The translations under genes were made by a program, and so were the position numbers. From an uncultured Candidatus Poseidoniales archaeon (GTDB taxonomy: Archaea; Thermoplasmatota; Poseidoniia; Poseidoniales; Poseidoniaceae), in the NCBI GenBank assembly GCA_902563095.1, contig CACEWA010000011.1, forward strand, positions 1 to 39,937: a DNA stretch of 39,937 nucleotides, written 5' to 3'. Below, one piece after another: positions 6,398 through 36,968 of this stretch. Position 1 is the first letter of the stretch; every line of letters starts with the position of its first letter. Below the pieces are notes generated by a model. It was not told where the DNA came from and did no database searches. It saw only the letters and a program-made list of their open reading frames with translations.

Positions 6398-6466
6398 GTG
6401 CTTGTTATGCAGATTGAATAGTATTGCATTCATTGCGCATGAAAACGAGTACTGCTAGCGATTGTC

Positions 6467-6472
6467 TTATAA
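6467..6472 (+). promoter_or_regulatory. TATA box of the surface/archaellum locus
   Basis: CTTATAATCC lies 25-30 nt upstream of the ATG at 6497. An archaeal transcription start about 25 nt downstream would fall at or just before that ATG, so the first gene is probably read from a nearly leaderless message. This also supports the start chosen for the gene. Confidence 0.5.
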
Positions 6473-6496: not shown

Positions 6497-6928
6497 ATGG
6501 CAGCCGGGCGTATGTCGAGAAGATGTCGCAAATTCATGCGGCAGATTCACAAGGCGACCACCCGATATGGCTTGCAGGAAATCGCTTCCTCCATCCAAAG
6601 CGACCTTGATCGCCGCTACCTCTCATACGAAGAGGCACTAAATTTGGGTAACATTCTCCAAGACAGGGCAGATACATTGCCTGGTGACGAAATTGTTTAT
6701 GCGGTTTCTGACCGAGACTCTTATCGAAGAACTCTCGAGTTGTATCTCAAGGACGGAGTATTAACTCAGGCTGAACAACTTCTCCTGTGGGAAGAACGAA
6801 GGCGACTAGGTATTGGAGACATAGTTCACAATCAATTGATGGAACAATTGCTAACAGTCTGGACTCGCCAAGGTAAGTCGGTACAGATTCATGCATTTAG
6901 AGGAGGTATGACCGATGTCCAGTCGTAA
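6497..6928 (+). CDS. Small helical protein of unknown function, first gene of the surface/archaellum locus
   Basis: A 143-residue basic, soluble protein that I do not recognise. Secondary structure looks all-helical: a basic N-terminus (RMSRRCRKFMRQIHK), then a segment around YLSYEEALNLGNILQDRAD, and DGVLTQAEQLLLWEERRRLG, which faintly resembles TerB-like or EF-hand-like helical turns. No signal peptide or membrane span is present, so it should be cytoplasmic. The start at 6497 sits about 25 nt below a TATA box; ATG 6512 is an alternative. Its last 14 nt overlap the start of the giant surface protein gene, whose Shine-Dalgarno AGGAGGT lies inside this gene. It should therefore be made in step with its neighbours. 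Confidence 0.75.
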   Translation: MAAGRMSRRCRKFMRQIHKATTRYGLQEIASSIQSDLDRRYLSYEEALNLGNILQDRADTLPGDEIVYAVSDRDSYRRTLELYLKDGVLTQAEQLLLWEERRRLGIGDIVHNQLMEQLLTVWTRQGKSVQIHAFRGGMTDVQS

Positions 6929-9900
6929 AGTTGCATTCTCAATGCTACTTTTGCTCCTAGTTCAAGTGATAGTTCCAATCATTCCTGCTGATGCAACAAC
7001 CGGCAGAACTTCGCCAGACTTCAATGTCTCAGTCCTGACTCTATCTTCAGGCGGCTCTATCGATGAAGCAGGCCAAATCAAGTTATCTCCTGGCGACCAT
7101 ATCATTCGCGTAGTCGTTTCGAATGATGGTCCAGCTGCAGGCTCTGCAGTTCTGAACATTGTTCATCAAGCATCTGCGTCTTCTGGAGAAACGCCTGTTA
7201 CTTCCATCGACCTCGGTAGTATTGGTGCAGCATCATCTTCTAATCCGGTTCTGATTAACTGGACTGCAACATCGGGTGATGGCCAGACTCTCTTCGCAAG
7301 AATCGTATCTGCTGCGGACTCAGATAATTCAGACAATGAGCGTAGCATCGATTTCGATGTCACTATGTATCACAAAGGTACAGTATTGGGTCATAATGTT
7401 CCAGGACCAACGCCTGGTTTCACAGACCTAAGATTAGACCATTCAATTCATACGTATGAAGCAACGGTTAGAAATGACGGTGTCATGGATATTTCTGCTG
7501 TTTACGAATTGAATTTCACAGATGATTCAAACCCTAGCAATCAAGTTTCATATTGGTCCAATACTCTAATTTTGGAACCTGGCAGTTTGTTATATGCTTC
7601 TAGCGGTGCAACATTGTCAGTTTCATTTGACGCCTCAACTATGTTGGGTTCATGGACAATGGCGTCCAAGGTCCACTTCAATGGAACACTCTGGACTAAC
7701 ATGATTGTAGCAGATGTCATTACTGTTACATTCTCAGATTTCATAGTAGATCTATCAACTCCAGGCGATAGAGCGATTGAGCCCGGGGCAACAACTACGC
7801 TAACCTGGATAGTTTCCAATATCGGTAATACAGATACTCTAACAATTGAATTGGGCTCAGATTTGGGATGGCACGATAATGGCCAGAATGGAAACCTCAT
7901 CAGCATAAACGGGGGAGAATCAACTTCAATCGTTGTCCCTGTCACGGTTCCTGCTAATGCTGTAAAACCTACTCTAGAAAATGTATATCTTAATCTGACT
8001 AGCAATTCAGCTAGTCCATACACTGCTAGAAGTGTTGCACACGTAATGGTCGGCGACCAGTATCAGGCCGAGGTCATTGCGCCAGCAGGACCAGTCACTG
8101 TAACGCCTGCACAAACTTCCTCACTGTTATTCACCATAGAAAATAGTGGCAATGTTCCGGCGGCATTTGATATCGCAACAGGTCTTTCAGCAGCAGCTGA
8201 AAACTGGCTAATCGAATCATCGGTCACTAGAACAGATGTAATTCCAGTTGGCGCAAATGTTTCTGTATCGATACAAGTAACGCCTGCTCCAATTTCTTCA
8301 CCGCTTGATTCCGGAGAGAGGAACGCTGCTGGAGACAGTTTGTACGCATGGCTGTCTGCAACCCCTGTCGAAGGCGGAATCCCGGCACTTAACTCAACCC
8401 AGTTGGTTATCAGAGCAGTTATTGCAGTAGACCCTGGTCCAGAAACCGACCAGATAATTCTCACTCCTCAGGACATTATTGATGCGAATGGTTCAGGAGG
8501 AATCGATAGGATTCTATCTCTTTCAGTAGAGGTACGTCATAATCTTGGAGGAACGGTTACTGGCGGAGTCGATGCCAATATTACTACTTCTGCTGCTTTA
8601 TTCACTCCAGCAAATAGTGGTGGAAATAACGAAGCAGCACGGTGGATAACCAATGTAACTCCTAATTCCGTTTCTGGATTAGAAGTGGGCGAAATATTCC
8701 AATCTTGGTTAGCAATAGATGGTCCTGGGGATGAATTGCCATTAGCAGGCGAATTGGTAGTCCCGGTCACAGCAACACCAATTTTGACGGCTAGCCAACA
8801 AGCTAACGGCGTATTGGCGAGTAGCGTTACTAGGAATATTTCAATCATAGTTCCAAGCGTTATTGATGGTGAAATCATTACGGAAGGTCCTCTAGATGCC
8901 GATGTTGGAAATCTAACCAATTTCACGATTAAATTAGCCAATACGGGCAATGACCTTTCTTCTTACAGACTAGTTATCGAAGACGATCTTCCGGAACTTT
9001 GGTCTGCTAGCATTGAAACATCAAACACAAACAATCCATCTATTGTTTCCAATTTAACACCATCAATGGCCGACCATCCAATCACTGGCAATGCACATAT
9101 TTCCAATGTGACTCTCAAAGTTACTACTGACCCTCAGGCTCCCGCAGATACCTTGCAACCATTAACTGTAAGAGTAGAAGATAGGGATACTGGAGAGATT
9201 CTATCTCTGAACACTTTATTGATTCGGGTTGAAGAATCTATCAATTTCGAACTTCAACCTACCAATCATACTGTGGATTTGTCACCTTATGAAACTCCGT
9301 TGACTCGCGTATACATCAACAATACAGGAAACGTTGCTACTACATTCTTGGTGTGGCTAGATAATTCACAATCTAATGATGTAGACTTCTCTTTAGAGTC
9401 AGCTACCGAAGTAGTAGTTGCTCCAGGATACTCGGACTCTGTGAAGATTAGACTTACTCCAGATACAGAGGCAAGCGCAGATGAATCGCATATGACCACT
9501 CTCTGGGTGGAAGCAATTGGTGGAATGAATAAGTCTGCTAGTATTGTAGCGAATATCTCGGCTGATCACCATCTTACAATCGAAGTACAGCCCCTAATCT
9601 CAGTTACTCCTGGTGTTAACGAAACAATAGATGTTTTATTCACAAATACGGGTAATTTGGAAGAATTCCTGAATGTTACAGCTGTTATTGAAGGTGGCTG
9701 GGAATCGAGTTGGGTCGAGAGCCAAATGGTTCTGCCTATCAACGGTAGCCTGCAAAACGATTTGACAGTCACAATTCCTGCATTAGGTGGCAACTTCTCC
9801 CTAGCAAATGGTGATACTCACAATGTCACCATTTCTCTGTACCACACAAATAATGGCGTATTTCTTTCTTCCAGAACAATTACGTTAGTAGTTGCTCCAT

Positions 9901-11927
9901 TATTCCTAGTTGAGTTTGAAGACTGGCCTTCCGAGGTAAATTACCATCGTCAGTGGGTAAGGGATTGGAAAGTAACTGTAACCAATGTTGGAAACAAGGA
10001 TGTTACAGCGGATTTGGAATATGAAGTCCTCAGGCCTGGTCTAGAAATCAACTCCCTGTCTTGGGAAGTCATTCAACCGGCGCCACCGTCGTTGATATTG
10101 CCTGTTGGACAATCTGTGGATTTAACATTCTCAGTAGAAGCCAAGGAATTCGAGCCAGACCTATACTTGGAGGCTCTATTGCGCCTTACATTGACTCCTA
10201 ACGACTCAGAAGTAAATGGTTCAGCAATTGCAGAAACAGCACTCAAAATGTCGAGATTATTCGCCTACAAGGATTACCAAATTAGCCTTCCACCTGAAGA
10301 CAATTCCAATTTGACTGAGGAGATAATTTGGTCTCACATCCCAGGTCTTGCGGGAGAAACTCCTGTAGAGTATATGATCGAGTTGTGTGATGCACAAAGA
10401 AGAGTCAATCTCACCCAATTAGGGCTAAGTGAAGATGATTTCGAGTGGTCTTTCGCCATTGATTTGAACGGTGAAAATCAAGAATTGAACTTAAACAACA
10501 ATTGCGATGGCAGCTCGCATTCTGTAATCTCTCTACCTTTGCGACCAGCATGGGAAACCAACAATCCGCTACTGATGATTGTTGATACTCCAAATCGGCC
10601 GAATATTTTGAAGAATGATGGTTATGATTTGACATTTAGGTTGTACCACCCTGGCGAACACAATGGTTTCACAGAATATACTGAAGAGACCTTTTCGTTT
10701 TACTTTACAACAAAGGCTTCTCTGAATATTTCCAAGTTCGAGTATGATGATGATTCGATGTCCGAAGGTTCTGTTTCCACCATTTCCGCAACCATTGGGA
10801 ATGCAGGAACCTCAATAGCAATTGGTGTAATATCCACATTGAGTTGCGAAGGAGTTACAGTTTCCAATCCTGTTGTTGAACATGGATTGGTAACAGCAGG
10901 CGAATCTATTCCTGTTGTTTGGGAAGTCGAAAGCGACAACCTTGATTGGTGGGCGCAATCAACAGATGTTTCTTGTGAACTTCTACTCTCTGGAACCGCT
11001 TGGAATGGTACGCCACTCGACTCTAGGTCTGTAACACGTGAGACAACAGTCAGTTCGTGGTCACCAGGAGTTACAGTTTCATTCATAGCAGTATTAGTAT
11101 TGTTAGGAGCGTCAGTAGGGCTGCTAAGGCTGGTTGGTCAAAATGACAAATTCCGTCTTGCAGCGATCTACACCGGCGTCTTGGCCCTAGGATTCGCATT
11201 CCACTTGATGGACTTAATCTCAAGCGATTGGGGCGGTCCTGCAATTTTGCTCATTGCAGCGTTATGGGTTTGGATTATGACATGGAAGTCTACCGAAGAG
11301 TTCCAATTGATTCACGAAGATTATCAGCGTGCAAGAAAGGGCATCAGCACCCTTTACAGTGACCACTTTGACGTATTGTCGAATTCTAAGCGCCAATTAG
11401 TAATCATTTTGGCGATGCCAATATTGGGTATGATCGGCGTTATCTTAGGATTCCCACCTCAGATAAATCCAGATTCAACAAATATGTTCTCTCTAATCGC
11501 ATATTTGGCGATTGTAATAGTTGGAGTAACATTCCTAATTTGGAATGCTAACAGAATGTACGGTTCATTGTATGGTAGATTAACTGAAGTTGAAGTACAG
11601 GCGAGTCGAATCGAGAGAGACTTAGGTGACCCAGCACGATTACTGACTGAGTTGGCTAGCGATGGATTGGATATTAGTTCAATAATCTCTCAGCCCAAAT
11701 CAACGGTTGCTGCGCCTGGCAACGCATCATCCTCTGCCGTAATCGATTGGGACGAAGAGGTAGGCCTATTGATGGAAGATGATCAATCGCCTCCGGAATC
11801 GATTACCTTAGAGTTAGAATCCGATGAAACTCCATCGGATGAAGGCACAGAGGAAGATGAACAGGCTGTAAGCGATATCGATGTTGAGGATTTATTTGTA
11901 GATGAGGAGGTGAGCAACGATGACTGA
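6915..11927 (+). CDS. Giant CARDB/NEW3-type surface protein with five C-terminal membrane spans
   Basis: 1670 residues. A signal peptide at 1-27 (LLLLLVQVIVPIIPADA) is followed by about 1350 residues of repeated beta-sandwich modules with the hallmark 'NxGN' strand pairs of CARDB and NEW3-type domains, such as VSNIGNTDTLTIEL, IENSGNVPAAFDI, LANTGNDLSSYRL, INNTGNVATTFLVW, FTNTGNLEEFLNV and VTNVGNKDVTADL. Many N-x-S/T sequons suggest N-glycosylation. Five hydrophobic spans follow at about 1384-1404, 1415-1435, 1441-1460, 1493-1514 and 1523-1544, then a 125-residue acidic tail. The topology would place the modules outside and the tail inside. The Shine-Dalgarno AGGAGGT is at 6901-6907. The 3' end overlaps the coiled-coil gene by 8 nt. 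Function is unknown; adhesion, an S-layer link or a motility anchor are options. Confidence 0.88.
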   Translation: MSSRKVAFSMLLLLLVQVIVPIIPADATTGRTSPDFNVSVLTLSSGGSIDEAGQIKLSPGDHIIRVVVSNDGPAAGSAVLNIVHQASASSGETPVTSIDLGSIGAASSSNPVLINWTATSGDGQTLFARIVSAADSDNSDNERSIDFDVTMYHKGTVLGHNVPGPTPGFTDLRLDHSIHTYEATVRNDGVMDISAVYELNFTDDSNPSNQVSYWSNTLILEPGSLLYASSGATLSVSFDASTMLGSWTMASKVHFNGTLWTNMIVADVITVTFSDFIVDLSTPGDRAIEPGATTTLTWIVSNIGNTDTLTIELGSDLGWHDNGQNGNLISINGGESTSIVVPVTVPANAVKPTLENVYLNLTSNSASPYTARSVAHVMVGDQYQAEVIAPAGPVTVTPAQTSSLLFTIENSGNVPAAFDIATGLSAAAENWLIESSVTRTDVIPVGANVSVSIQVTPAPISSPLDSGERNAAGDSLYAWLSATPVEGGIPALNSTQLVIRAVIAVDPGPETDQIILTPQDIIDANGSGGIDRILSLSVEVRHNLGGTVTGGVDANITTSAALFTPANSGGNNEAARWITNVTPNSVSGLEVGEIFQSWLAIDGPGDELPLAGELVVPVTATPILTASQQANGVLASSVTRNISIIVPSVIDGEIITEGPLDADVGNLTNFTIKLANTGNDLSSYRLVIEDDLPELWSASIETSNTNNPSIVSNLTPSMADHPITGNAHISNVTLKVTTDPQAPADTLQPLTVRVEDRDTGEILSLNTLLIRVEESINFELQPTNHTVDLSPYETPLTRVYINNTGNVATTFLVWLDNSQSNDVDFSLESATEVVVAPGYSDSVKIRLTPDTEASADESHMTTLWVEAIGGMNKSASIVANISADHHLTIEVQPLISVTPGVNETIDVLFTNTGNLEEFLNVTAVIEGGWESSWVESQMVLPINGSLQNDLTVTIPALGGNFSLANGDTHNVTISLYHTNNGVFLSSRTITLVVAPLFLVEFEDWPSEVNYHRQWVRDWKVTVTNVGNKDVTADLEYEVLRPGLEINSLSWEVIQPAPPSLILPVGQSVDLTFSVEAKEFEPDLYLEALLRLTLTPNDSEVNGSAIAETALKMSRLFAYKDYQISLPPEDNSNLTEEIIWSHIPGLAGETPVEYMIELCDAQRRVNLTQLGLSEDDFEWSFAIDLNGENQELNLNNNCDGSSHSVISLPLRPAWETNNPLLMIVDTPNRPNILKNDGYDLTFRLYHPGEHNGFTEYTEETFSFYFTTKASLNISKFEYDDDSMSEGSVSTISATIGNAGTSIAIGVISTLSCEGVTVSNPVVEHGLVTAGESIPVVWEVESDNLDWWAQSTDVSCELLLSGTAWNGTPLDSRSVTRETTVSSWSPGVTVSFIAVLVLLGASVGLLRLVGQNDKFRLAAIYTGVLALGFAFHLMDLISSDWGGPAILLIAALWVWIMTWKSTEEFQLIHEDYQRARKGISTLYSDHFDVLSNSKRQLVIILAMPILGMIGVILGFPPQINPDSTNMFSLIAYLAIVIVGVTFLIWNANRMYGSLYGRLTEVEVQASRIERDLGDPARLLTELASDGLDISSIISQPKSTVAAPGNASSSAVIDWDEEVGLLMEDDQSPPESITLELESDETPSDEGTEEDEQAVSDIDVEDLFVDEEVSNDD

Positions 11928-12891
11928 ATCTGAAGAATATGATGTAGGAGTTTCTGATTTGGAAGATGCTCGTAGAGTCATTCGCGATTCACAGACAAGC
12001 GCAGATAGATTGATTCGTGCAAGTCGTGAACTAGAGCATATTGTCTATGGCGTGTCAAGAGATGAATCCTCATTGGCAGCTACAGAGTTCGATATTATCG
12101 AAGCAAGAACCAGTCTTGAGCAACATCAGTTGATGCGTGCTAGCCGTTCAGTAAGGCGTGCAGAAAAAGCACTTTCTTCCTTAGAAGAAGATGTAGTTGA
12201 CCTGCGAAGAAATATCGCAATGCTGAATCGATTGTTGAAAGAAAAGACTCTCACTGAAGCGGAACTTGAGATAATACTGCGCCGCTTACGGAATGCCACA
12301 GGAGCCGCTGAAGTCGGCGAAGTCGGTTATGCAGCCGAAGAAGTGGAACAATTGATTGGAGATTTAGTAGTAGATTCCGCTGTCGCTCTAAATCCGTTCT
12401 TGTTCAGAAATTTCTGGATGGGAGTAGATACTCGTTGGCCAGCAGGCGGAGAAACTGGAGTCATGATTGTCAGAATTTGCAATGATGGAACCCGTCCTAT
12501 TCCTGAGATGAGGCTAGCGCCCCCGGTCCCAACTGATTGGCAATGCGTCCCCGAATCAATCGATTTGCCAATAATGCGCCCCGGCGATGTAATTCTTGTC
12601 AGGTTTGAGGTCAAACCTGGACTGCGCTTTGGATTGGACGAAATTCCACTGTCTCGCAAATTAGCAATCCAAGCAGGGTATGAAGTAGAAGCAGGACAAG
12701 TAAATGTTACAATGCGCGTACAAAACCGTAGCATGGAAACAATTCGTGATTTGTTGCTTCAGCCTTGGATGCCTCCTGGGTACAAATCAGATACTATCCC
12801 TCTGGTAGAGAAACTCTCACCAGATGAAATCGGAGTGGTCACTATGCCACTCGTAATAGACATGGGCGACGGGGGTGAAACCGCCGCCTAA
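11920..12891 (+). CDS. Cytoplasmic coiled-coil protein with C-terminal beta domain, unknown function
   Basis: 323 residues with no signal peptide or membrane span. Residues about 10-160 are strongly helical and heptad-like, rich in E, R, L and A (for example SRSVRRAEKALSSLEEDVVD), predicting a coiled coil or helical bundle. The rest looks like beta-sandwich modules: a VRICNDGTRPIPEMRL segment and later VTMRVQNRSMETIRDLLL resemble the CARDB-like strands of the preceding surface protein, but in a protein that appears cytoplasmic. The ATGACTGA overlap with the upstream gene implies stoichiometric production with it. It could bind the acidic cytoplasmic tail of that protein or the archaellum base. 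I do not recognise a named family. Confidence 0.82.
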   Translation: MTESEEYDVGVSDLEDARRVIRDSQTSADRLIRASRELEHIVYGVSRDESSLAATEFDIIEARTSLEQHQLMRASRSVRRAEKALSSLEEDVVDLRRNIAMLNRLLKEKTLTEAELEIILRRLRNATGAAEVGEVGYAAEEVEQLIGDLVVDSAVALNPFLFRNFWMGVDTRWPAGGETGVMIVRICNDGTRPIPEMRLAPPVPTDWQCVPESIDLPIMRPGDVILVRFEVKPGLRFGLDEIPLSRKLAIQAGYEVEAGQVNVTMRVQNRSMETIRDLLLQPWMPPGYKSDTIPLVEKLSPDEIGVVTMPLVIDMGDGGETAA

Positions 12892-12914
12892 TCATTTTCC
12901 ACCCTGCGGCGGTT
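12879..12914 (+). terminator. GC-rich hairpin spanning the stop codon before the archaellin genes
   Basis: AACCGCCGC at 12879-12887 pairs perfectly with GCGGCGGTT at 12906-12914 around an 18-nt loop that contains the stop codon of the coiled-coil gene. No T-run follows, so it is not a standard intrinsic terminator. It may attenuate readthrough or act as an RNA processing site that separates the surface-protein module from the archaellins. Confidence 0.5.
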
Positions 12915-12966
12915 GAGCCAGTGGGGAGGATGTAGAGATACAAAAAAGAAAAAGAGGTGAAAACCA

Positions 12967-13545
12967 ATGCAGAAAAGAAAAATGAATGAAGAAAGCAACG
13001 ATTGGGGTTCAATCGGTATTGGTGCGATGATTGTTTTCATCGCCCTAATCCTGGTTGCCGCGGTCGCAAGTGCAGTTATCATCCAAACGGGTGAGAAGTT
13101 GCAGCAAAACGCACAACAGTCGGGAAGCGACACACAACAGGAAATTTCGGGTAAAATCTCGATTATTACTGTCTGGGTCGGTGCCCAAAACGCGAACAAT
13201 GAAGAGATCACTATGGTCTTTGAACTAGCACCTGGCTCCGAGCCAATTGCAGATACTGCAGTCCACTGGGCTGTAATTTGTGATGATGGTGCTGGTACTC
13301 CTTCAGTAGTCGATGGCGATTTGTCAACAGCAACAGAACTAGACGGTGCAACAGCAGTAGCACAATTTGACCCAGGGTCGACCTACATGATCGACCTGAT
13401 TGTCGGTGGTGCAAACGGTGGCGGCTCAGATTGTCCACCTACACTAAATGAAGAGCACTCTATGGTAATCTCCGCAAATGGTGGAGGTTCAACCTATGAA
13501 ACACTGTTCTATCAAAGCACAACACAAGGAGACCAAGTTGTTTGA
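12967..13545 (+). CDS. arlB1: Archaellin 1 (archaellum filament subunit)
   Basis: Major filament subunit of the archaellum. The 192 residues start with a short class III signal peptide. Cleavage by an ArlK/PibD-type peptidase is expected after G14, followed by SIGIGAMIVFIALILVAAVA, the near-universal archaellin N-terminal helix. A conserved GEKLQQNAQQ segment follows, then a variable beta-rich domain, ending in QGDQVV. The residues before the cleavage site are D12-W13 rather than the usual basic pair. The ATG is preceded by AGAGGTGA at a 6-nt spacing. A 75-nt gap carrying a hairpin separates it from the upstream gene, and archaellin 2 follows directly. Two cysteines in the mature domain (one in AVICDDG, one in SDCPP) could form a disulfide. 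Confidence 0.93.
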   Translation: MQKRKMNEESNDWGSIGIGAMIVFIALILVAAVASAVIIQTGEKLQQNAQQSGSDTQQEISGKISIITVWVGAQNANNEEITMVFELAPGSEPIADTAVHWAVICDDGAGTPSVVDGDLSTATELDGATAVAQFDPGSTYMIDLIVGGANGGGSDCPPTLNEEHSMVISANGGGSTYETLFYQSTTQGDQVV

Positions 13546-13555
13546 GGTGATTATG

Positions 13556-14128
13556 ATGAAGAATAATAACGAAATTAAGAATGATGAAATCGGTTCTATT
13601 GGTATCGGTGCAATGATTGTATTCATTGCTCTAATCCTGGTGGCAGCAGTGGCATCCGCTGTTATCATCCAAACCGGTGAGAAATTACAGCAAAACGCAC
13701 AACAGACAGGTTCTGATACTCAGCAAGAAATCTCTGGAAAGATTTCTGTTAACTCAATATTTGTCTATGACGATTCAGCATCTTACCTAGTCTACTTCGA
13801 AACCGCTCCAGGTTCCGAAGTTCTAGATGAGTCTACAACAGATTACCAGATGACCTGTGAAACTGCAGGTGGAGCATATCAGTATGTTTCAGGAACCTTC
13901 GCAGCAGCTACAGAAGTCGATGATGTAGGCGGTGCTGCAGTAGCAAATAATCTACTGCCAGGTGTAACATATGCGCTCGTTATGAACGCAGCACCAGGCG
14001 ATGATTGCTCTGCAACATCTGTTGGAATTAACGCAGAAGTCACACTTTGGATACACGTCGAAGGTGGCGGCTCAACTTATGAGACGCTATACATCTCCGA
14101 TACTACCAGAGGATCGATAGTTATCTGA
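13556..14128 (+). CDS. arlB2: Archaellin 2 (archaellum filament subunit)
   Basis: Second archaellin, 190 residues from ATG 13556. That start sits 5 nt after GAGGTGA; the adjacent ATG at 13553 would add one Met. Its signal peptide ends at G13 and is followed by the same SIGIGAMIVFIALILVAAVA helix as archaellin 1. The two proteins match almost perfectly through the region ending QQEISGKIS, then diverge fully in the outer domain. The DNA of the shared part differs at many third positions, so the identity reflects selection on the buried filament core. Paired cysteines (one in QMTCETAGG, one in GDDCSA) match the spacing logic of archaellin 1. The two genes are 10 nt apart and likely form one transcript ended by the hairpin at 14136-14172. 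Confidence 0.93.
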   Translation: MKNNNEIKNDEIGSIGIGAMIVFIALILVAAVASAVIIQTGEKLQQNAQQTGSDTQQEISGKISVNSIFVYDDSASYLVYFETAPGSEVLDESTTDYQMTCETAGGAYQYVSGTFAAATEVDDVGGAAVANNLLPGVTYALVMNAAPGDDCSATSVGINAEVTLWIHVEGGGSTYETLYISDTTRGSIVI

Positions 14129-14135
14129 TTCGAAC

Positions 14136-14172
14136 TGAACCCCAAAATTGCTCTTCGGGGCATTGGGGTTCA
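14136..14172 (+). terminator. Two-part hairpin with C(UUCG)G tetraloop after the archaellin genes
   Basis: A perfect 10-bp outer stem (14136-14145 with 14163-14172, TGAACCCCAA/TTGGGGTTCA) is extended, after a 3-nt bulge, by a 5-bp inner stem (14149-14153 with 14158-14162, including one G-U pair). It is closed by the exceptionally stable tetraloop TTCG at 14154-14157 flanked by C and G. There is no T-run. It starts 8 nt after the archaellin 2 stop and ends 10 nt before the next Shine-Dalgarno AGGAGGT. It is probably a 3' stabiliser or partial terminator that sets archaellin mRNA above motor-gene mRNA. Confidence 0.65.
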
Positions 14173-14194
14173 ATGAGAATTAGGAGGTACTGAT

Positions 14195-15013
14195 ATGGCA
14201 TGGCCATTCGGTAGCAGTGAAAAGTCTGGGGAAGTCCCTAGCGACCTCTCGGAGGAGCGCTTGCGCGTTATGTCAAACATAGCGATCGAGCAAGTTCCTA
14301 TGCCTGAACAAGGCGAATTAACCGAAGAGGACGCTTGGACAATTTCTCCCGGACCTACAAGGGCTAAGCTCAACAGTTCTGGATCTATTCCAGTTGCAGC
14401 AACTGCTCCAGCACAAACTCAAGCGAACGTCGATACATCAGGTCTAGAGCGAATGATTTCCACTCGCATAGATTTGGTTGAAGATATTCTCAATAGAGTT
14501 GAGAATAGACTTGAGGACGGTGTTGTGGCTCGCGCTGACGGCACAGGTTCAGAAGGTAGTGCATCTGGTGAAGTCGAACTTGGAGAAGGCGATACAATCG
14601 TCACAGCTTCAGGCGACGTCATTACAGCATCGGGAACAGAACGCCTGAAGTCTGATGATGCAGCACCTTTGTTGGAATTGTATGAGGCTCAAGCCTTAGC
14701 ATCTAACCCATTCCTAATCGCTCCGGCGCACTTAGGAGATGGTGCAGATGGAACAGTCGGTGCGCCGACTGTAGCAGCATTATTGCTTGACAATCTGTCT
14801 GGCATGGCAGCAGTCTCCTTCACTCAGAAGGCGATGAATTCTGGCATGCTAACTGCAGATGAAGGAAAGCATGTATTGGCAATTGTTCAGATGGCCGCTC
14901 CTGGTGATACAGAGAGCGCATTGGAAGACCATTTGCCACACAGAGAGTTGCTAACATTCTCTGCCCTAATCTCCAATTGGAGAAGGGCGAGAGCACTCAG
15001 GGGTGAAGAGTGA
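14195..15013 (+). CDS. ArlC/D/E-like archaellum accessory protein
   Basis: 272 residues, soluble and acidic, with no signal peptide. It occupies the position where euryarchaeal loci encode ArlC, ArlD and ArlE, which form the cytosolic ring coupling the motor to chemotaxis input. The C-terminal part agrees with the ArlD/E pattern: a hydrophobic segment (VAALLLDNLSGMAAVSF), then a short turn (NSGMLTADE) and LEDHLPHRELLTFSALIS, which resembles the DH-x-LxFIxxL block of that family. The N-terminal half is low complexity with an amphipathic helix near 85-105. A strong Shine-Dalgarno AGGAGGT lies at 14183-14189. The stop abuts the next ATG. The assignment rests on synteny and weak motif resemblance. 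Confidence 0.6.
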   Translation: MAWPFGSSEKSGEVPSDLSEERLRVMSNIAIEQVPMPEQGELTEEDAWTISPGPTRAKLNSSGSIPVAATAPAQTQANVDTSGLERMISTRIDLVEDILNRVENRLEDGVVARADGTGSEGSASGEVELGEGDTIVTASGDVITASGTERLKSDDAAPLLELYEAQALASNPFLIAPAHLGDGADGTVGAPTVAALLLDNLSGMAAVSFTQKAMNSGMLTADEGKHVLAIVQMAAPGDTESALEDHLPHRELLTFSALISNWRRARALRGEE

Positions 15014-15655
15014 ATGGGTAGCGTAGCAGTTGGAGCGATGGTGGTTGGAACATCATTGCTGGTAGTTTTCGCATTAGCGATGGCTACTCTTGAAGCGCAG
15101 GTGGATGATTCCATTGCGCAAATCGAGGCATCTGCTGAACCCATTTCACAATTTACTATTGAGAACGCCAATAACGTTGAGGGAGCAGTGGTGTCATTCA
15201 CAATAAATAACGGTGGAACCGGCTATTCAGCCGGCCAAGTCGAAGTGAATGGCAGCGCAGGCTCCTTCCTCGCGGACCTTGTGATCTCCGGGGGTACAGT
15301 TACAGGATTGAATATTCTTGACCACGGATCATCGTATCTCTACGCCTCCTCGTACTTTTTGGAGGTCACAGGTCCTAACACTGGTTCGAACCTAAACATC
15401 TCAGCCACATTAGGGAATCTAGTTTACCTGAATGTTACCAATGATGGTAGCACGGATTTAGCAACTGATTTCTCATGGTTGTTTTCTGATGGAAGTTCGC
15501 CAATAAATCTCTCAGATGGGCATGATGGATATCAACCAACTATCATTTTCCCAGGGGAGACTTTCCAATTCTACTACGATAGCGGGACTCAAGCAACAGT
15601 TTCTCGTCTTGCTATTACCATAGATGGCCAAACCAAGGCTACAAGTGTTCTGTGA
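15014..15655 (+). CDS. arlF: ArlF-like archaellum stator subunit with GGxGY-repeat insertion
   Basis: ArlF is the pseudoperiplasmic stator protein that ties the archaellum to the S-layer. This 213-residue protein has the typical N-terminal membrane helix (GAMVVGTSLLVVFALAMATL), a polar helix (QVDDSIAQIEAS) and a C-terminal beta-sandwich (about 135-213: NLVYLNVTNDGSTDL, then a P-G-E turn and a final strand). Between them, at about 60-134, lies an extra module with NNGGTGYSAGQVEV, ISGGTVTGLNIL and DHGSSY. This is the repeat style seen in many extracellular and phage-tail proteins and is not expected in ArlF. It is translated directly after the ArlCDE-like gene with no spacer. Function is assigned by position and fold pattern. 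Confidence 0.75.
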   Translation: MGSVAVGAMVVGTSLLVVFALAMATLEAQVDDSIAQIEASAEPISQFTIENANNVEGAVVSFTINNGGTGYSAGQVEVNGSAGSFLADLVISGGTVTGLNILDHGSSYLYASSYFLEVTGPNTGSNLNISATLGNLVYLNVTNDGSTDLATDFSWLFSDGSSPINLSDGHDGYQPTIIFPGETFQFYYDSGTQATVSRLAITIDGQTKATSVL

Positions 15656-15664
15656 GGTATTTCT

Positions 15665-16159
15665 ATGGCAGACGGCGGCGCAAGTTCAATGATTTTGCTT
15701 GTCACATCTCTATTGATTAGTGGAGCAGCCTCGGTTGTTCTCCTAGAATCATGGGGGGATCTTGCAGCAGCCAACGGTACCAATGCTAAGGGTAAAGTGG
15801 CTAATTCCGAAACCGATGTTTCCTTTAGTGGAGACAGAGGCGATGTGCTGTTAGATAATTCAGGTGCGAATCAAGAAATAACTCTGTATTTCCAAAATAC
15901 TGGTTCTCGCACTTTAGACAAGAGTTCATTCTCGATATTTGTTGATGGTGTCGCTGCTAGTACTGTGGGTGCTACAACGCTGTACCCTGCTAATGGAGTA
16001 TGGGCTACTGAATATGTCATTGAAGTGACGGTTAGCGACGCCAGTTTCAGTTATGCTGACAATGATTTAGCAACTGTAACAATTATTGTTCAATCTACTG
16101 CTACCGATGGAGTCAAAGGAACAGATTCTGAAACTGCCGAGGTGAGGCTAAGTGTTTGA
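15665..16159 (+). CDS. arlG: ArlG archaellum stator subunit
   Basis: 164 residues. An N-terminal hydrophobic helix (MILLVTSLLISGAASVVLL) anchors a beta-sandwich facing the pseudoperiplasm, with EITLYFQNTGSRTL as the conserved strand pair. ArlG forms filaments that bind ArlF and hold the motor against the S-layer. It is smaller than the preceding ArlF protein and lacks its inserted module. The gene follows arlF after 9 nt and its last 8 nt overlap the GTG start of arlH, consistent with a tightly coupled motor operon. Confidence 0.82.
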   Translation: MADGGASSMILLVTSLLISGAASVVLLESWGDLAAANGTNAKGKVANSETDVSFSGDRGDVLLDNSGANQEITLYFQNTGSRTLDKSSFSIFVDGVAASTVGATTLYPANGVWATEYVIEVTVSDASFSYADNDLATVTIIVQSTATDGVKGTDSETAEVRLSV

Positions 16160-16868
16160 TGAACCACCAAAGCCCGTTGAGGACGGGTATGAATTCACTC
16201 TTGAGCAAGATAGCCTTGCAAATGCGATGGGTGCTCGCTTACCGAATAGAAGCCTCTGGATGATTCAGGGCGAGGTAGGTAGCGGTAAATCCCTAGTGAG
16301 TCAAAGGATAATTTTTGGATTGCTCGAAAATGGTTCCAAGGTATTGGTAGTTACCACAGAATTAACCACTCGTGGTTGGATTGAACAAATGGAATCGATT
16401 GGTTATCCAATCACAGATTACATCGCAACTGGGAAACTAATGGTATTCTCTAGGTTCGGTGTTATCGCAGAGGCCAAAGAGGGCGTAGACTTATTCGACG
16501 TCTTAGAATCTGATGCCATCGAAAAGGCAGATGTCATCGTAGTCGATTCAGCATCAGCATTGATGCCGGAAAGCCTAGAGCAATCAGAGCATCTCGCTAC
16601 ATTACAGAAGCTGCGAAAGGTTTGCAGCGAATCACGCTCACTATTGTTAACAGTAGATCCATCAGAGATGGACGAGAAATTGTTACACAAATTACGTTCA
16701 TCCTGCGAAGTCTTGCTTGATATGAATGCAGGTTTCGTAGGTGGGGAAATCAAGAGAACAATCGTTGTTACTAGATTCCTTCGTGCTGCTGGTCCAGTTC
16801 AAGCAAGCGTTGGATGGCGTGTTGAGCCTTACATGGGCTTCATCGTAGATATTACGGCGGTGAGCTGA
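16152..16868 (+). CDS. arlH: ArlH, RecA/KaiC-fold ATP-binding regulator of the archaellum motor
   Basis: 238 residues with a Walker A loop GEVGSGKS at 40-47 and a hydrophobic Walker B strand ending in D (VIVVDS, 128-133). ArlH binds ATP on a KaiC-like fold, forms a ring under ArlI and regulates assembly and rotation. The TTELTTRGWIEQM stretch after the P-loop is a family feature. The start is GTG at 16152, overlapping the arlG stop; the frame allows no better start. The stop TGA shares its final base with the ATG of arlI. Confidence 0.92.
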   Translation: MFDEPPKPVEDGYEFTLEQDSLANAMGARLPNRSLWMIQGEVGSGKSLVSQRIIFGLLENGSKVLVVTTELTTRGWIEQMESIGYPITDYIATGKLMVFSRFGVIAEAKEGVDLFDVLESDAIEKADVIVVDSASALMPESLEQSEHLATLQKLRKVCSESRSLLLTVDPSEMDEKLLHKLRSSCEVLLDMNAGFVGGEIKRTIVVTRFLRAAGPVQASVGWRVEPYMGFIVDITAVS

Positions 16869-18583
16869 TGGATGAAGAACTCAAATTCCAACGCGGTGAC
16901 TTAGATTCTGTCATGGCTGCACATCCTCACGTGGCACAGTGGGTTCAGGATTTTGAAGCAAAATATGGCAGTAGACCGTACTATTACGGGCCATTGGATA
17001 GAGATGCTCGAAAGGTCGAGCCAATGAATCTTATCTATATCACAAAAGAACCAATCTTTGTGCATATGTATCGGCCTGTCGATGATGATGGTTCAGAGGG
17101 TCAGACACTTTGGTTTGGTCTAGAACCTCAATTGACCGATGAAGAAGAAAATATACGTCGAACTTTGATTGAAGTCCTTCTCCAAGAAGCGCCAAGTGCA
17201 CCTACATTCACAACGGATGATGAATTCGAAAACATTCTATCTGGAATGATTGATAGATATACCATCCTAGATTCAGAAGCAAGAGGTTCTGTACGTAGGC
17301 AAGGTAGAATGTGGGAAGTTCTAGGTATGGACGACAAGCGAATTGTAGTCACAAAGGAGCAAAGAGATAGGCTACGATATACAATTATTCGTGACTTAAT
17401 CCGTAATGGTCCATTGGAACCACTTCTTTCAGATGAGATGCTAGAAGATATTCACTCAGTTGGTTTGAAGCATGTTCATATGGATCACAAGGTGTTCGGC
17501 ATGGTAACTTCCAACATCCGTTTCCGTGAGAGAGATTTACTGGCAAGATACCTTAGAGCAATGTCTGAGCGTATTGGAAGACCAGTATCCGATAACAAAC
17601 CGATTATTGATGGAGCATTGTTAGATGGTTCACGTATCAACATCATTTTCTCTGATGACGTATCTATGTTAGGTCCGTCATTTACAATCAGAAAATTCGC
17701 TGAAGAAACAATCTCAGTAATTCAACTGATTAAATGGGGTACGATGAGTGCCCAGCAAGCTGCATACATCTGGATTTGTTTGGAGTATGGAATGTCGGTA
17801 TTGGTGAGTGGAGAAACAGCATCTGGTAAGACTACTACTCTGAACGCAATTCTTCCTTTCATCGACCACAATGTCAAGATTTACTCTGCTGAAGATACAC
17901 CTGAAGTTAAGGTAAGGCACAAAATTTGGCAGAGACTAGTTACTCGAGACTCCAAGAATGAGGAAAGTAGAGTAGAGATGTTCGACTTGCTCAAGGCTGC
18001 TTTGCGTTCCCGTCCTCGTTACATTATCATTGGTGAAATTCGAGGTGTGGAAGGTGCAACTGCATTCCAGGCTATGCAGACAGGTCACCCGGTCATTGCT
18101 ACATTCCACGCATCGTCAATCGTTAAGATGATTCAGAGATTTACTGGCGACCCAATCAACGTTCCAATTCGTTTCTTCGATAACTTGAACTTCGCAATCT
18201 TCCAAGAAGTTGTAGAAGCACCTGGCGGTGGAATAGCAAGACGTATTACCGGTATTGACGAAGTTATTGGATACAACAAGCACAGTGACGGTGTTCTAAC
18301 AAGAGGTATGTTCGAGTGGGACCCAGTAAAAGACAAGCATTACTTCCGTGGTATGTTTCAATCACATCTTCTAGAAAACAAAATTGCTGCTCAGATGGGT
18401 TTCGAAAACAAAAGAGAAGCGTATGATGAATTGACGCGACGTGCAGAAGCGATTGAAATAATGGCAGAGAGGAATTTGACCCACTATGATGATGTTTTCG
18501 ATCTGTTGAATTTGTATTACAACGGCGGCTGGGAAGCATTCCGTGCTGCCGTAGAAACTTGGGTCAGTATTACTGAGCGCTGA
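16868..18583 (+). CDS. arlI: ArlI, hexameric secretion/rotation ATPase of the archaellum
   Basis: Type II/IV secretion superfamily ATPase, 571 residues. It assembles the filament and powers its rotation from the cytoplasmic face. Walker A is GETASGKT at 315-322; the Asp box follows in IIIGEIRGVEGATAFQAM, and the His box in TGHPVIATFHASS. The N-terminal part (about 1-270) carries ring-forming segments including IHSVGLKHVHMDHK and a conserved RIGRPVSDNKPIIDGALL block. Length is in the normal range for ArlI. The ATG overlaps the arlH stop by one base, and arlJ follows after 15 nt with its own Shine-Dalgarno AAGGAGATGA. Confidence 0.96.
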   Translation: MDEELKFQRGDLDSVMAAHPHVAQWVQDFEAKYGSRPYYYGPLDRDARKVEPMNLIYITKEPIFVHMYRPVDDDGSEGQTLWFGLEPQLTDEEENIRRTLIEVLLQEAPSAPTFTTDDEFENILSGMIDRYTILDSEARGSVRRQGRMWEVLGMDDKRIVVTKEQRDRLRYTIIRDLIRNGPLEPLLSDEMLEDIHSVGLKHVHMDHKVFGMVTSNIRFRERDLLARYLRAMSERIGRPVSDNKPIIDGALLDGSRINIIFSDDVSMLGPSFTIRKFAEETISVIQLIKWGTMSAQQAAYIWICLEYGMSVLVSGETASGKTTTLNAILPFIDHNVKIYSAEDTPEVKVRHKIWQRLVTRDSKNEESRVEMFDLLKAALRSRPRYIIIGEIRGVEGATAFQAMQTGHPVIATFHASSIVKMIQRFTGDPINVPIRFFDNLNFAIFQEVVEAPGGGIARRITGIDEVIGYNKHSDGVLTRGMFEWDPVKDKHYFRGMFQSHLLENKIAAQMGFENKREAYDELTRRAEAIEIMAERNLTHYDDVFDLLNLYYNGGWEAFRAAVETWVSITER

Positions 18584-18598
18584 AAAGGAGATGATTAG

Positions 18599-20407
18599 AT
18601 GGAGCGAATGGCGACGTGGCAGATTGCTCTGCGTCGTCTAGAGATGCCAGTTCCTCGCTTTCTGTTTGCATTCGTTTTACCTGCTGCATTGGCTGGTTTG
18701 GTCTCTGCAATTCTGTTGATTTGGTTGACAGGCGGGTTCTCTGAAGGAGGATTATTTGCTGGGTTCACTGGAATTTTTCTAATCATCACGTTACCGCTAT
18801 TGACGGGAGCCGCAGCAATCTACTTCCCTATTCTCGAAGTAAATCGCTCCGCGATAAAAATCGAGAAAGAAATGCACATGTTCATTACGCGAATGGGAAT
18901 TCTCTCTCTTGGTGAAGTCGGAGCAGACACTATTTTCGATATACTAAGGCAGATGAAAGATTACGGTGAATTAGCTCAAGAAGTAAAGCGAATTGAAACA
19001 CTTGTAGACAAATGGCACACCTCTTTACCAGAAGCAGCGAGAATCGTAGCTCAACAATCACCTTCTCCATTGTGGACTGATTTCCTAGATAGAATGGCAT
19101 TCTCGATTGAAGCAGGTCAACCTATTGATGCTTTCATGCGTGCAGAGCAAGAAACGGTTGCTGAACAGTACAACACAATCTATGATACTAGGCTAGAGAG
19201 TGTTGACACACTAAAGGAAATTTACGTTTCACTTGTTTCCGCTGGATTATTTGGATTAGTTGTTGCTGGTATCCATTTGGTATTATTCGAAATTGGAAAC
19301 GGTAGTAGTGCGACTCCGATTGAATTAGCAACCAGAATTAGATGGTTATTACTTGCTGGATTCTTATTCGTAGTTATCCAAGTTGGTGCCTTATTCGCAT
19401 TTAGGGCTACGATTCCCGATGACCAGACATTCGCTCGTGATGGATTCGAAACACCATTCCGTCTGCTTTTCAGACAAACCTGGCTTGGAGCAGGTTTGGT
19501 TAGTATTGCTCTAATGATAGTAACAATTGTTGTAGTAATTTCATATTGGGATAGTTTGACCACTACTTGGGACAAATACGGATTAATTCTTCTAGCTTTA
19601 CCGTTGACTCCATTGTTAGTCCCCTCCATTTTAGTTCATCGAGAAGAAAGCAAAGTTCTGCGCAGAGACGAAGCATATCCTGACTTCATTCGCGCTTTAG
19701 GTGGTACAGCGCAAGCACGAAGTGCGGAGCCAAGCGCTACAATTAGGGCACTCCGCGGGATTGACTTCGGTATGCTGGACGAATCCATCGATCGCCTAGA
19801 GAAGCGTCTTTCCACGAGAATAGATAGCGAACGGGCATGGGATTATTTCGCAGCAGACACCAACTCTGCAGTGATTTCTCGCTACAATAGAATCTACATT
19901 GAAGGCTCACAATCATCTGGTGAGCCAGCAGAAACCGCCGATATGGTTTCTCGTTCTGTCACAAACTTACTATCTCTGCGTAGAAGAAGGAGTCTTTCTG
20001 CTTCTACAATGTGGGGTGTAGCATTTGGTTTACTGATTTCTTCAGTTGTATCTTTGAACGTTACAATTTCCATTGTTCTTCAACTGGGTGAAACAATCGC
20101 TGGAGTTGCAACTAGTATTGCTGAAACCACAGATATTGGGTCGATATCCGATGCTGCCGGTGATTTCGTCCTTCCAGTAATGGAAGACCCTACTGCAGTT
20201 GCAGACAATATTTTGATGTTCAAGATAATCGCCTCAATTCTTATTTTAGTTCAAGTATTAGCAGTATCTCTAATCGCAACACGCCTTCGAGGAGGAGGTT
20301 TCACAAGTGCTGTTGGGCAAATGATTCAACTACTCTGGGTTGCAGCTCTAGCAAGTCTAATCTCGTCTTTCATCCTAGATGGCGCATCAAGCATGTTCTC
20401 AACATGA
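18599..20407 (+). CDS. arlJ: ArlJ, polytopic membrane platform of the archaellum
   Basis: 602 residues, a TadC/GspF-type membrane protein forming the platform on which ArlI acts. I count nine hydrophobic spans, for example FAFVLPAALAGLVSAILLIW, LFGLVVAGIHLVLFEIG, WGVAFGLLISSVVSLNVTI and LIQVLAVSLIA-like segments near the C-terminus, with two cytoplasmic GspF-like helical domains (about 85-205 and 345-460). Its conserved IRALRGIDFG and FIRALGGTAQARS segments match archaeal FlaJ/TadC proteins. It is the last gene of the plus-strand locus; the stop is followed within 20 nt by two more in-frame stops. Confidence 0.93.
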   Translation: MERMATWQIALRRLEMPVPRFLFAFVLPAALAGLVSAILLIWLTGGFSEGGLFAGFTGIFLIITLPLLTGAAAIYFPILEVNRSAIKIEKEMHMFITRMGILSLGEVGADTIFDILRQMKDYGELAQEVKRIETLVDKWHTSLPEAARIVAQQSPSPLWTDFLDRMAFSIEAGQPIDAFMRAEQETVAEQYNTIYDTRLESVDTLKEIYVSLVSAGLFGLVVAGIHLVLFEIGNGSSATPIELATRIRWLLLAGFLFVVIQVGALFAFRATIPDDQTFARDGFETPFRLLFRQTWLGAGLVSIALMIVTIVVVISYWDSLTTTWDKYGLILLALPLTPLLVPSILVHREESKVLRRDEAYPDFIRALGGTAQARSAEPSATIRALRGIDFGMLDESIDRLEKRLSTRIDSERAWDYFAADTNSAVISRYNRIYIEGSQSSGEPAETADMVSRSVTNLLSLRRRRSLSASTMWGVAFGLLISSVVSLNVTISIVLQLGETIAGVATSIAETTDIGSISDAAGDFVLPVMEDPTAVADNILMFKIIASILILVQVLAVSLIATRLRGGGFTSAVGQMIQLLWVAALASLISSFILDGASSMFST

Positions 20408-32379: not shown

Positions 32380-35300
32380 ATGCTCTTTGAAACCCTTGCA
32401 ATCATTGCATTGATTACTCCAATCAGTGCAACTTCGGCTTGGGTTTTGCGTAATGATGTTGAGAAGATTTGGCAATCAATTCTGCTTTACGCAGGACCAA
32501 TAATCGATGCCTGGTTTGTTTGGCTATTCCTTGATTGGCTTGAAATGGGTTTTTTCTCTACATGGGGATGTACTATCTCAGCAGGAATTATTTCTAGTAT
32601 GCTTTTACAACCAATATTCTCTCCCAGAAGGCTAGTAGTATTCCGTTTGTCATGGCAACAAGTTCGTCGAAGACCTCGTCAGGCGGCATTGATGATGGCA
32701 GGATTATTGGTTGCATCCTCGATAATTACTTCATCACTTGTAGTTGGAGATAGTTTGGATGCAACACTTAGCAAAGAAGTAGAGGCAGTGTATGGAGATA
32801 CAGATATACTAATTTTCCAAAAAGATAGGCGTACTGGTTTCTCATTCGATTTGGACATCAATCTAACCTCTGCATTTGGAAGTGCTCTAATCGAATCGAA
32901 AATTGCAGATGAATGGTCTCATGGCATCGACACGACAGCAACATTGTCTCGAAGTGACGGTCTAGCGCTGCCGTCAGCAGCTTGGTACGCCTATGATGGG
33001 TGGCAAGGCGTTGCTATCAACCAAGTTGCTTCTGATGAGTTAAAGATTTCAAAGGGTGATGTGTTGGAAATTTCTTGGTTTTCTTATTCCGATGATGCAG
33101 AATTGGTCCGTACCTCTGAAAATTTGACAATTACCTCGGTTATCTCAATGAATGGCAAGGGTTCGATGAGCGGAACTAAATCCCCAGCATTATTCACCTC
33201 ACTTGAACTATCACAGCAGTTACAATCAAAGCAATGGAAAGTAAACATGATGCGAGTTTCTCTAGTTGATGACAGTTCAGCATCTCAGAGCATTACTGGA
33301 ATCGAATCCACTCTGGACGGTCTAATTGATTATGAATCAGCAGGCTTCGAAATCAACACTGATCAAGATTCCATTTCAATTTCTAATTCCAATGGTTTAG
33401 GGAGATTAGAGGCATCCTTCATGGAATCTTGGGATGGAAACAAGACCAGACTAATAGGCCAAGGCTCGAGTATGGAGGTTTTGCAAATCCCGTTAGTACA
33501 AATCGAACAAGATGGAAAGGTAATGTCGCTCCCTGATGATAGAATTGACGAGATTATGGCAACAGAAGAAGGTGACTGGTACATTTCAGGAGGTGCGGTT
33601 TCCTATCAGAAGGAGCGTGGGGGATCAAGTCATGGTTGGGAGGTGCCAAATGGGGGACTGATTAGAGATGTCACTTTGTTAAACGATTCTTTATTGGTGG
33701 CGCATAGTGAAGGATTGGTTGAGGTTCCTGCAGATCGAGATGGAGATTTAGTTCACCATATCAAGGGTGAAGAAGTAATGGTTGCTGCATTATTTGAACA
33801 AGATTTGCCGGATCTTCCCTCGACAGTATTTTCAATGGATTATCTCGAAATATCAGGTGAAGATTGGCTTGCAGTTAGCCACATTACAGGAAAAGAAGTC
33901 TATCGGTATTCTGGCTCGGAATGGCTAGAAACGACATTGATTGGTGAATGGTTACATTTCGACGATGAGGTGATGGCAGGTTCACCTACTACTGGCTGGA
34001 CTACAATCTCTGGACTGCAATCACCAACTTGGCCTGCAGTAAGAGGGGGCCTACTGCTCGATAACAATTCGATATACAGTTTCGATGGAGAGGTGATTTA
34101 TCTTTCAGATTTCGATTCTGTTTGTGATGAAAGAGTATTTTCTTACGATGGTGAAGTAATCTGCAGTACCTCATTTGGGGTAGTAATCGATTCGGGAGGA
34201 TTATCCCCCCGCTTACCCTTGACAGTTGATATTGGTGGATTTGGAGTAATGCCACAACTATTGCTTGCTACCGATGGCCCGCTATCGCCTGCCCAGGGAG
34301 ATGTGCTAATCTCATCTAGGCTTTCTTTACTCGATTCTTCTGAAAACGTTCTATTCAATGGATTGATTCCATGGGCGTATGGCGACAACTCACCAATTAC
34401 TTTGGAAATAGAAGGCAATATGTCTTCAATCGATGCTCCAGGTTTAGATGAACTTGAATCGATAATTATTGGCTTTGTTAATCTAAGCGATGGAGAAATA
34501 CTAGCGGCTTCGGCTGAAGGCGAACGCAGCATCTTAGTCGTGAATGGAGGAAATCAGTCTGAAATTTTGCTTTGGCTTGATTCTATCTCTGGTGTAGACT
34601 CAATGAACCTGAAAACTATTGCAGCCAAAGAAGAGGCGCTTGCTACAGCTGAAGAAGGCGCAGGAGCCCTTTCAGCAATGTTCCTAGTATTCGGAGCGTT
34701 CACGATTGGTGCAGGACTATTATTGGTGCTAACAATTGTAATGATGCTTGCAGAATCCCGAAGAACCGATGAAGCAATCATGCGAGCAATTGGATTGAAG
34801 CGCTCCGACATGAGGTCTCTAGCATTGATGGAAGGAATGATGACATCTGCTGGAGCATCAATTCTTGGCGGAATATTTGGTTTGGTTTTAGCATGGATAG
34901 TTTCTCTTGCATTTAGCAGTGTTTTTGCTAGTGCAGGAGCTGATGGTATTGCCTATTCTTTCAGTATCGAAAGTATGCTTATTGGAATGTCCGCAGGTTT
35001 CATCATTGCAATGGCAACTCTTTGGGGTACTGCATTTTGGACTAGTAGGCTGAATATAGTGCAAGCATTACGAGGCCTATCTCCGATGCGTAAACGAGGA
35101 ATACCATGGTGGCTATTTCTATTGTTGATTGTATTCATTGGTACCGGTTTATTGGCGGGACTTAGTATTCTTACATTTGATTCATCTTCACCAATGAGAT
35201 TTGCATTGTGGCATATTATGGCATCATGCTTGATCGTCGGAATAACGCCATTATTCACCTTTATCCTACCGCATCTTAGAGGGTGGTCAATCAGAAATAC

Positions 35301-36891: not shown

Positions 36892-36931
36892 GGCTAATCT
36901 CCTTTGCCAACGCCTAAATACCGTATATGTC

Positions 36932-36949
36932 GTCGGAGGTGATACCGAC
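36932..36949 (+). promoter_or_regulatory. Hairpin containing an extra strong Shine-Dalgarno upstream of the surface protein
   Basis: GTCGG (36932-36936) can pair with CCGAC (36945-36949). Its loop side contains GGAGGTGAT (36935-36943), a 9-nt match to the usual archaeal anti-Shine-Dalgarno, but no start codon lies at a normal distance from it. The gene's own GGAGG (36956-36960) is 8 nt before the ATG. TATA-like CTAAATA (36914-36920) or TATAT (36924-36928) lies just upstream, so how much of this hairpin is transcribed is unclear. Confidence 0.4.
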
Positions 36950-36968
36950 CCTTTTGGAGGAGATGACA

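Follow-up and report, generated by a model that had tools for sequence, protein, structure and literature searches.

A gene pair encoding a giant Ig-like membrane protein and a predicted cytoplasmic partner, linked to the archaellum cluster in Poseidoniales and other Thermoplasmatota

The stretch of DNA analysed here (the window; 39,937 nucleotides) is contig C11, GenBank CACEWA010000011.1, of a 63%-complete metagenome-assembled genome (MAG) of the family Poseidoniaceae (family label f1), order Poseidoniales, Thermoplasmatota. It carries three adjacent genes, called A, B and C in this work, directly upstream of an archaellum (arl) gene cluster. B encodes a giant protein with immunoglobulin-like (Ig-like) domains and five transmembrane (TM) helices, and C encodes a predicted cytoplasmic partner. 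The two form a conserved pair that accompanies the arl genes within Poseidoniales and recurs beside them in other Thermoplasmatota. All window coordinates are on the + strand, and the core of the locus is as follows.

6466..6472, + strand: TATA-like element CTTATAA, 24-30 nt before gene A (consensus match only)
6497..6928, + strand: gene A, 143 aa, basic N-terminus, optional member seen only in Poseidoniales (open reading frame, ORF)
6900..6907, + strand: Shine-Dalgarno sequence of gene B within gene A, GAGGAGGT (sequence)
6915..11927, + strand: gene B, 1670-aa giant Ig-like protein with five TM helices (ORF, hydropathy, Pfam, AlphaFold2)
11904..11913, + strand: Shine-Dalgarno sequence of gene C within gene B, GAGGAGGTGA (sequence)
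11920..12891, + strand: gene C, 323-aa predicted cytoplasmic partner (ORF, hydropathy, AlphaFold2)

In the ORF list, A and B overlap by 14 nt and B and C by 8 nt, and a strong Shine-Dalgarno sequence lies ahead of each overlap, within the preceding gene. The overlaps and these internal sites suggest that the three genes are co-translated. Downstream of C, on the same strand, follow two archaellin genes, a CDE-like gene and F, G, H, I and J, which constitute a complete arl cluster. A scan of the + strand for the consensus TTTATAA, allowing at most one mismatch, gives CTTATAA as the sole match between 3037 and 10703 and no match in 10711-17680. An earlier note, made from the sequence alone, had described this coupled layout leading into the archaellum genes, with which the ORF coordinates agree, and had placed a TATA box upstream of the first gene only; the scan fits this pattern, a consensus match being no proof of it.

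The linkage was examined by searching one set of 146 Poseidoniales genomes for A, B, C and ArlJ alike. Both C and ArlJ were found in 83 genomes (83/94 of those holding either gene) and neither in 52; C is found alone in 4 and ArlJ alone in 7, five of which hold B, in some cases only as a fragment at a contig edge, nearly all being draft MAGs. When C and ArlJ are on one contig, they are always on the same strand with a spacing of 5.6-7.9 kb (55/55), and this kept arrangement is far beyond chance; in the remaining 28 genomes with both, the genes are split over contigs. Presence next to arl genes and absence where arl is absent, which the earlier note had named as a check, are thus what the order presents. 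In one f1 genome (G045, L098) the arl genes are present and B and C were not found, but the arl contig ends about 370 bp past arlG, which makes their absence uncertain.

The order of the genes was read off directly for 19 loci from both Poseidoniales families, between which the upstream flank of the locus already differs. To account for the joint presence or absence of B-C and arl on an RpoB tree, three or more changes within the order are required, in which the two traits changed together, so that the association is not a single historical accident. In general, B-C is encoded in the arl cluster or adjacent to it, in chromosomal surroundings that are otherwise unrelated; it is present or absent together with arl within Poseidoniales, a rule that is not universal in Thermoplasmatota (see below).

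The conserved unit is smaller than the three-gene module that had been proposed. Two archaellate genera of family f2 (g13 and g20) lack gene A, which was also not seen outside Poseidoniales, so that B-C stands as the conserved pair and A as an optional member. The small A protein begins with a basic stretch and is judged helical from reading its sequence. A 48-residue stretch of it recurs in a protein of about 333 aa encoded elsewhere in the majority of these genomes, and the matching region of that protein has a weak resemblance to TerB. In one genome (L091:1241-2242, G000:C6), this is a 333-aa zinc-ribbon protein encoded between a thiolase gene and an MreB/actin-like gene. In the sister family, genus g14 has a coiled-coil-rich ORF of 1061-1082 aa, with no Pfam match, between A and B (L092:3367-6552; L102:5079-8327).

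To follow the pair into the rest of the phylum, 243 Thermoplasmatota genomes were searched, first with profiles of C and the C-terminal part of B and subsequently with an iterated profile of C. B-C lies directly upstream of archaellin and the arl cluster in five loci of family f11 (L146, L148, L149, L156, L159) and in two of f28 (L157, L158), and a further f11 locus (L145) holds C onward. The order B-C-archaellin-CDE-F-G-H-I-J recurs outside Poseidoniales in f11 (L148, L149, L156, L159) and f28 (L157, L158). In f12 (L160), C-archaellin is found at a contig edge. In f26, one contig terminates with B-C (L147) and another with CDE to J (L167), a split compatible with the order just given. A scan with ArlI, which gave 80 named arl loci, adds Candidatus Halarchaeoplasma halalkaliphilum (L184) and a Thermoplasmatota MAG from the Great Salt Lake (L189), in which B-C is located downstream of arlJ, still in the cluster. 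These two halophilic lineages present a second, independent linked arrangement of the pair.

The linkage is not without exceptions. In f8 and f18, an intact B-C pair does not adjoin arl genes (L150, L154, L155), and C-like proteins that mainly match through the Ig-like domains and have no adjoining B are present in f7 and f25 (L143, L144, L152, L153) and in f22; these C-like proteins were not counted as module members. Both observations would favour an explanation in which B and C are only co-regulated neighbours of the archaellum genes and work in the envelope independently of the archaellum. We regard this as very improbable, since the joint change with arl, the two independent linked arrangements and the constant same-strand proximity argue against it, and since the f8 and f18 genomes with unlinked pairs are themselves archaellate, still carrying ArlH. 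The outcome that the earlier note had named as refuting, wide occurrence away from arl loci with no conserved linkage, was not found.

Several archaellate Thermoplasmatota, namely f24, f27, f15, f16 and f30 (L163, L164, L166, L165, L171), have a similar cluster order and no B-C, with the proviso that MAGs are incomplete. B-C was not found in the examined arl loci of Archaeoglobaceae, Methanocaldococcus, Methanothermococcus, Methanoperedens, Methanosarcinales, Thermococcus and DHVE2, and full-length C was found in none of the 21 non-Thermoplasmatota genomes tested (0/21); the absence outside Thermoplasmatota is that in the named arl loci and their genomes. Two other large ORFs of related appearance were met. 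In Euryarchaeota bin41 (CP070732.1, L248:15464-18592), a 1042-aa CARDB-type ORF with a signal peptide and one TM segment lies directly downstream of arlJ, with no C. In the window itself, a 1451-aa FtsX-type permease adjoins a second large protein with a CARDB-like-looking start (32380-36735 and 36927-39937).

Protein B is divided into the following segments.

6915..6998, + strand: signal peptide, residues 1-28 (hydropathy)
6999..11048, + strand: ectodomain, residues 29-1378 (repeat profile, Pfam)
11049..11543, + strand: five-helix membrane domain, residues 1379-1543 (hydropathy, AlphaFold2)
11292..11363, + strand: cytosolic TM3-TM4 loop, residues 1460-1483, the most conserved segment of B (column entropy)
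11544..11690, + strand: cytosolic helical stalk extending TM5, residues 1544-1592 (AlphaFold2, column entropy)
11691..11924, + strand: acidic tail, residues 1593-1670, not conserved (column entropy)

A profile built from B's own repeats detects 10 Ig-like domains between residues 49 and 1374, and probably one or two further domains escape it, giving a total of about 10-12; with the same profile, the relatives of B have 7 to 12 each. The Pfam matches (NPCBM_assoc/NEW3, FixG_C and CARDB) are weak to moderate and all belong to Ig-like families. With several Ig-like domains and a signal peptide, B, and of the three proteins B only, qualifies as a CARDB/NEW3-type multi-Ig surface protein. From the helix count and the signal peptide, we infer that the ectodomain is outside and the tail inside. 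The AlphaFold2 model of residues 1268-1600, calculated with 45 sequences, has a mean predicted local distance difference test score (pLDDT) of 92.9 and comprises one Ig-like domain and five membrane helices, the last of which, TM5, is long and extends into the cytosol. Foldseek gave no whole-domain match for the membrane domain.

Conservation is concentrated on the cytosolic face. Within Poseidoniaceae, column entropy is 0.54 for the TM3-TM4 loop and 0.73 for the TM5 extension, compared with 1.75 for the ectodomain. The acidic tail has an entropy of 2.36 with few filled columns and is nearly absent from the sister family, for which reason it was rejected as a working element. The CARDB-type protein with five membrane spans that the earlier note had described stands, except that its acidic inner tail is not a conserved feature; the trans-envelope architecture that it had suggested is supported by the topology and the models.

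With such an ectodomain, B may instead be a surface adhesin or a sheath of the archaellum base, co-regulated with archaella for attachment to particles, with C as its cytosolic organiser. Domains of the CARDB/NEW3 type occur frequently in surface and adhesion proteins of archaea (PMC8416519), and an adhesive use of Poseidoniales archaella has already been proposed (PMC6461757). However, a five-helix base and a highly conserved cytosolic face exceed what an adhesin needs, and the tight linkage to arl holds outside Poseidoniales too, so that we consider an adhesin quite unlikely.

Protein C has neither a signal peptide nor a TM segment by hydropathy. Its AlphaFold2 model (mean pLDDT 85) contains a helical domain and two Ig-like domains, in agreement with the earlier description of a cytoplasmic protein with CARDB-like strands.

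11950..12375, + strand: helical domain of C, residues 11-152 (AlphaFold2)
12412..12858, + strand: tandem Ig-like domains of C, residues 165-313 (profile search, AlphaFold2)

Beyond the Ig-like domains in B and C, nothing namable was obtained for A, B or C from Pfam, NCBIfam and PDB profiles. An identity of C with EzrA, Spc24 or a similar protein was rejected, as the similarity is of coiled coils only and the EzrA match is below the curated cut-off. C was also considered as a diverged ArlCDE and rejected, with an hhalign probability of 4% and with neither the FlaC (PF05377) nor the Arch_fla_DE (PF04659) domain found in it. An NPFL motif follows a helix in several of these proteins: ALNPFL in C, ASNPFL in the CDE-like protein and INPFID in ArlCDE. 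A Foldseek search with C gave no whole-domain match, only resemblances of the Ig and adaptor-appendage type.

The last resemblance, of fold level only, may be taken to suggest an assembly or positioning factor, in which B-C would be a polar cap-like platform or an aid to the secretion or assembly of archaellin and stator proteins. The B-C genes do directly precede archaellin, and the complexes associated with polar caps have yet to be identified (PMC5517150). However, polar caps have been reported from Euryarchaeota, for example Pyrococcus (PMC5517150), and full-length C is missing from the Thermococcus genomes tested; we therefore consider such a role improbable.

The remaining genes of the cluster in the window are the usual archaellum parts, some of them divergent.

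12967..13545, + strand: archaellin 1 (PF01917, 6e-20)
13553..14128, + strand: archaellin 2, start at 13553 likely (ORF and position)
14195..15013, + strand: divergent ArlCDE-like protein (position; weak ArlCDE profile match)
15014..15655, + strand: stator-like protein in the ArlF position (position alone; family searches without match)
15665..16159, + strand: ArlG (NF052591, 1.4e-18, below cut-off)
16152..16868, + strand: ArlH (NF052589, 3e-55, below cut-off)
16868..18583, + strand: ArlI (T2SSE match)
18599..20407, + strand: ArlJ (T2SSF match)

The earlier note had offered, as one possibility, that the module replaces part of the usual input module of the archaellum. This was rejected for ArlCDE: the f11 clusters have an intact FlaC + FlaD/E protein beside B-C, and Poseidoniales have a divergent CDE-like gene, which profile comparison ties only weakly to ArlCDE. 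Genes in the ArlF/G positions are likewise kept alongside B-C. Since these parts are retained, nothing is replaced, and B-C adds to them. B and C have no match to Arl families and are not assigned to the ArlF/ArlG stator family.

Chemotaxis proteins present a different situation. A CheW-domain protein was found in none of the 13 Poseidoniales genomes tested (0/13), nor in the f11, f8, f18 and f26 genomes. In addition, one f28 genome (G193) has two arl clusters, one (C14) beside CheW-domain genes and the other (C117, L157) with B-C. Rinke et al. noted that chemotaxis genes are absent and proposed adhesion (PMC6461757). Accordingly, B-C may be a surface-contact or chemical input device for cells without chemotaxis proteins, in which the Ig ectodomain of B would sense particles or ligands and signal through the loop and stalk to C, which would switch or brake the motor; a conserved cytosolic face under a variable ectodomain would suit this. 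Such a sensor is nevertheless unlikely. The archaellate lineages f24, f27, f15 and f16 have no CheW and no B-C either, so that B-C is not a simple chemotaxis substitute and a general replacement of chemotaxis was rejected. Moreover, ArlCDE persists beside B-C in f11, and profile searches of A, B and C found no known signalling domains, including CheW and CheA domains, which leaves the module proteins outside the Che system.

We favour the explanation that B-C is a trans-envelope scaffold or anchor dedicated to the archaellum, a function that we consider about evenly balanced between right and wrong. The strong part of the case is the dedication to the archaellum, while the mechanism is what we infer from it. 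The co-occurrence and joint changes with arl, the two linked arrangements, the conserved cytosolic face and the TM5 model together suggest a scaffold whose inner face would bind C and, probably, the motor, judging from architecture and conservation. The stalk of 10-12 Ig domains would stand in the envelope around the archaellum base, where it would offer the stator proteins ArlF/ArlG a support to push on and would hold or space the motor where the envelope is flexible. The base of five helices would fix B in the membrane, and its conserved cytosolic loop and TM5 stalk would dock C, which would link B with the ring of the motor in the cytosol (CDE-like protein, ArlH and ArlI), so that torque would be carried to the envelope and the cell body. 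A, where present, would be an accessory cytosolic subunit. A scaffold of this kind would bear on an acknowledged gap: ArlF/G are known to anchor the motor to the surface layer (S-layer), and the anchoring of archaella without an S-layer is unexplained (PMC12448462). In a more specific form, which is possible but doubtful, B-C would be a membrane-anchored palisade of Ig repeats with a cytosolic coupling protein, serving several Thermoplasmatota lineages as a stator anchor where the envelope provides none.

Several points weigh against this scaffold. Thermoplasma and Oxyplasma, which have no S-layer, swim nonetheless (PMC12448462), and Thermoplasmatales-like arl clusters (f27, L164) show no B-C, so that such an anchor is not generally needed. 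The unlinked pairs of f8 and f18 also count here, the variability of the ectodomain would fit an adhesin or a sensor equally well, and the fold searches with the B membrane domain and C gave only Ig-level matches.

Comparison with known systems sets the pair apart. Like the ArlF/ArlG stator, which is pseudoperiplasmic and bound to the S-layer, B has extramembrane Ig-like domains, is encoded in the arl cluster and is proposed to anchor; unlike these small proteins, which have a short N-terminal helix and a single archaellin-fold domain, it is a multi-Ig protein of 1200-1700 aa with five TM helices and a cytosolic face. C resembles the ArlCDE/ArlX cytosolic ring in being a soluble cytosolic arl-cluster protein with a helical domain, but it has no profile similarity to ArlCDE and co-exists with it in f11. 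The VARTIG modules of Thermococcales also begin with a large Ig/CARDB-type surface protein followed by smaller genes. They are described as hypervariable, recently acquired islands centred on arCOG07710, not as arl-linked, and only some of them have a predicted C-terminal TM domain (PMC8416519). On that description, the conservation of B-C across the order and its retention with arl argue against VARTIG membership. The Pfam families NPCBM_assoc/NEW3, CARDB and FixG_C, which match the B ectodomain and the C domains weakly to moderately, indicate only a domain type, and no Pfam family covers the whole of B, its membrane domain or C.

These genes have been seen before. Fig. 4 of Tully 2019 places several orthologous unannotated proteins in the Marine Group II (MGII) motility region beside flagellins and FlaHIJ (PMC6336850), so that, as far as that figure tells, B-C was already present there, yet unnamed and uninterpreted. 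What differs from that account is that domains and a candidate function are now given to B-C and that it is traced outside Poseidoniales. In the literature, searched mostly by title and abstract, no link of CARDB-type proteins to the arl cluster was found.

Poseidoniales are among the most abundant archaea of the ocean surface. The binding of ArlF/G to the S-layer is the only means understood so far by which an archaellum withstands its own torque, and the case without an S-layer is open (PMC12448462). B-C supplies named genes and conserved segments, namely the TM3-TM4 loop, the TM5 stalk and protein C, with which anchoring, gating and adhesion can be tested, and the two-cluster genome G193 offers a natural contrast for the role of the pair. 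In addition, B-C is a marker for this variant of the archaellum, and it shows that Thermoplasmatota arl clusters contain machinery still without a name in the curated families.

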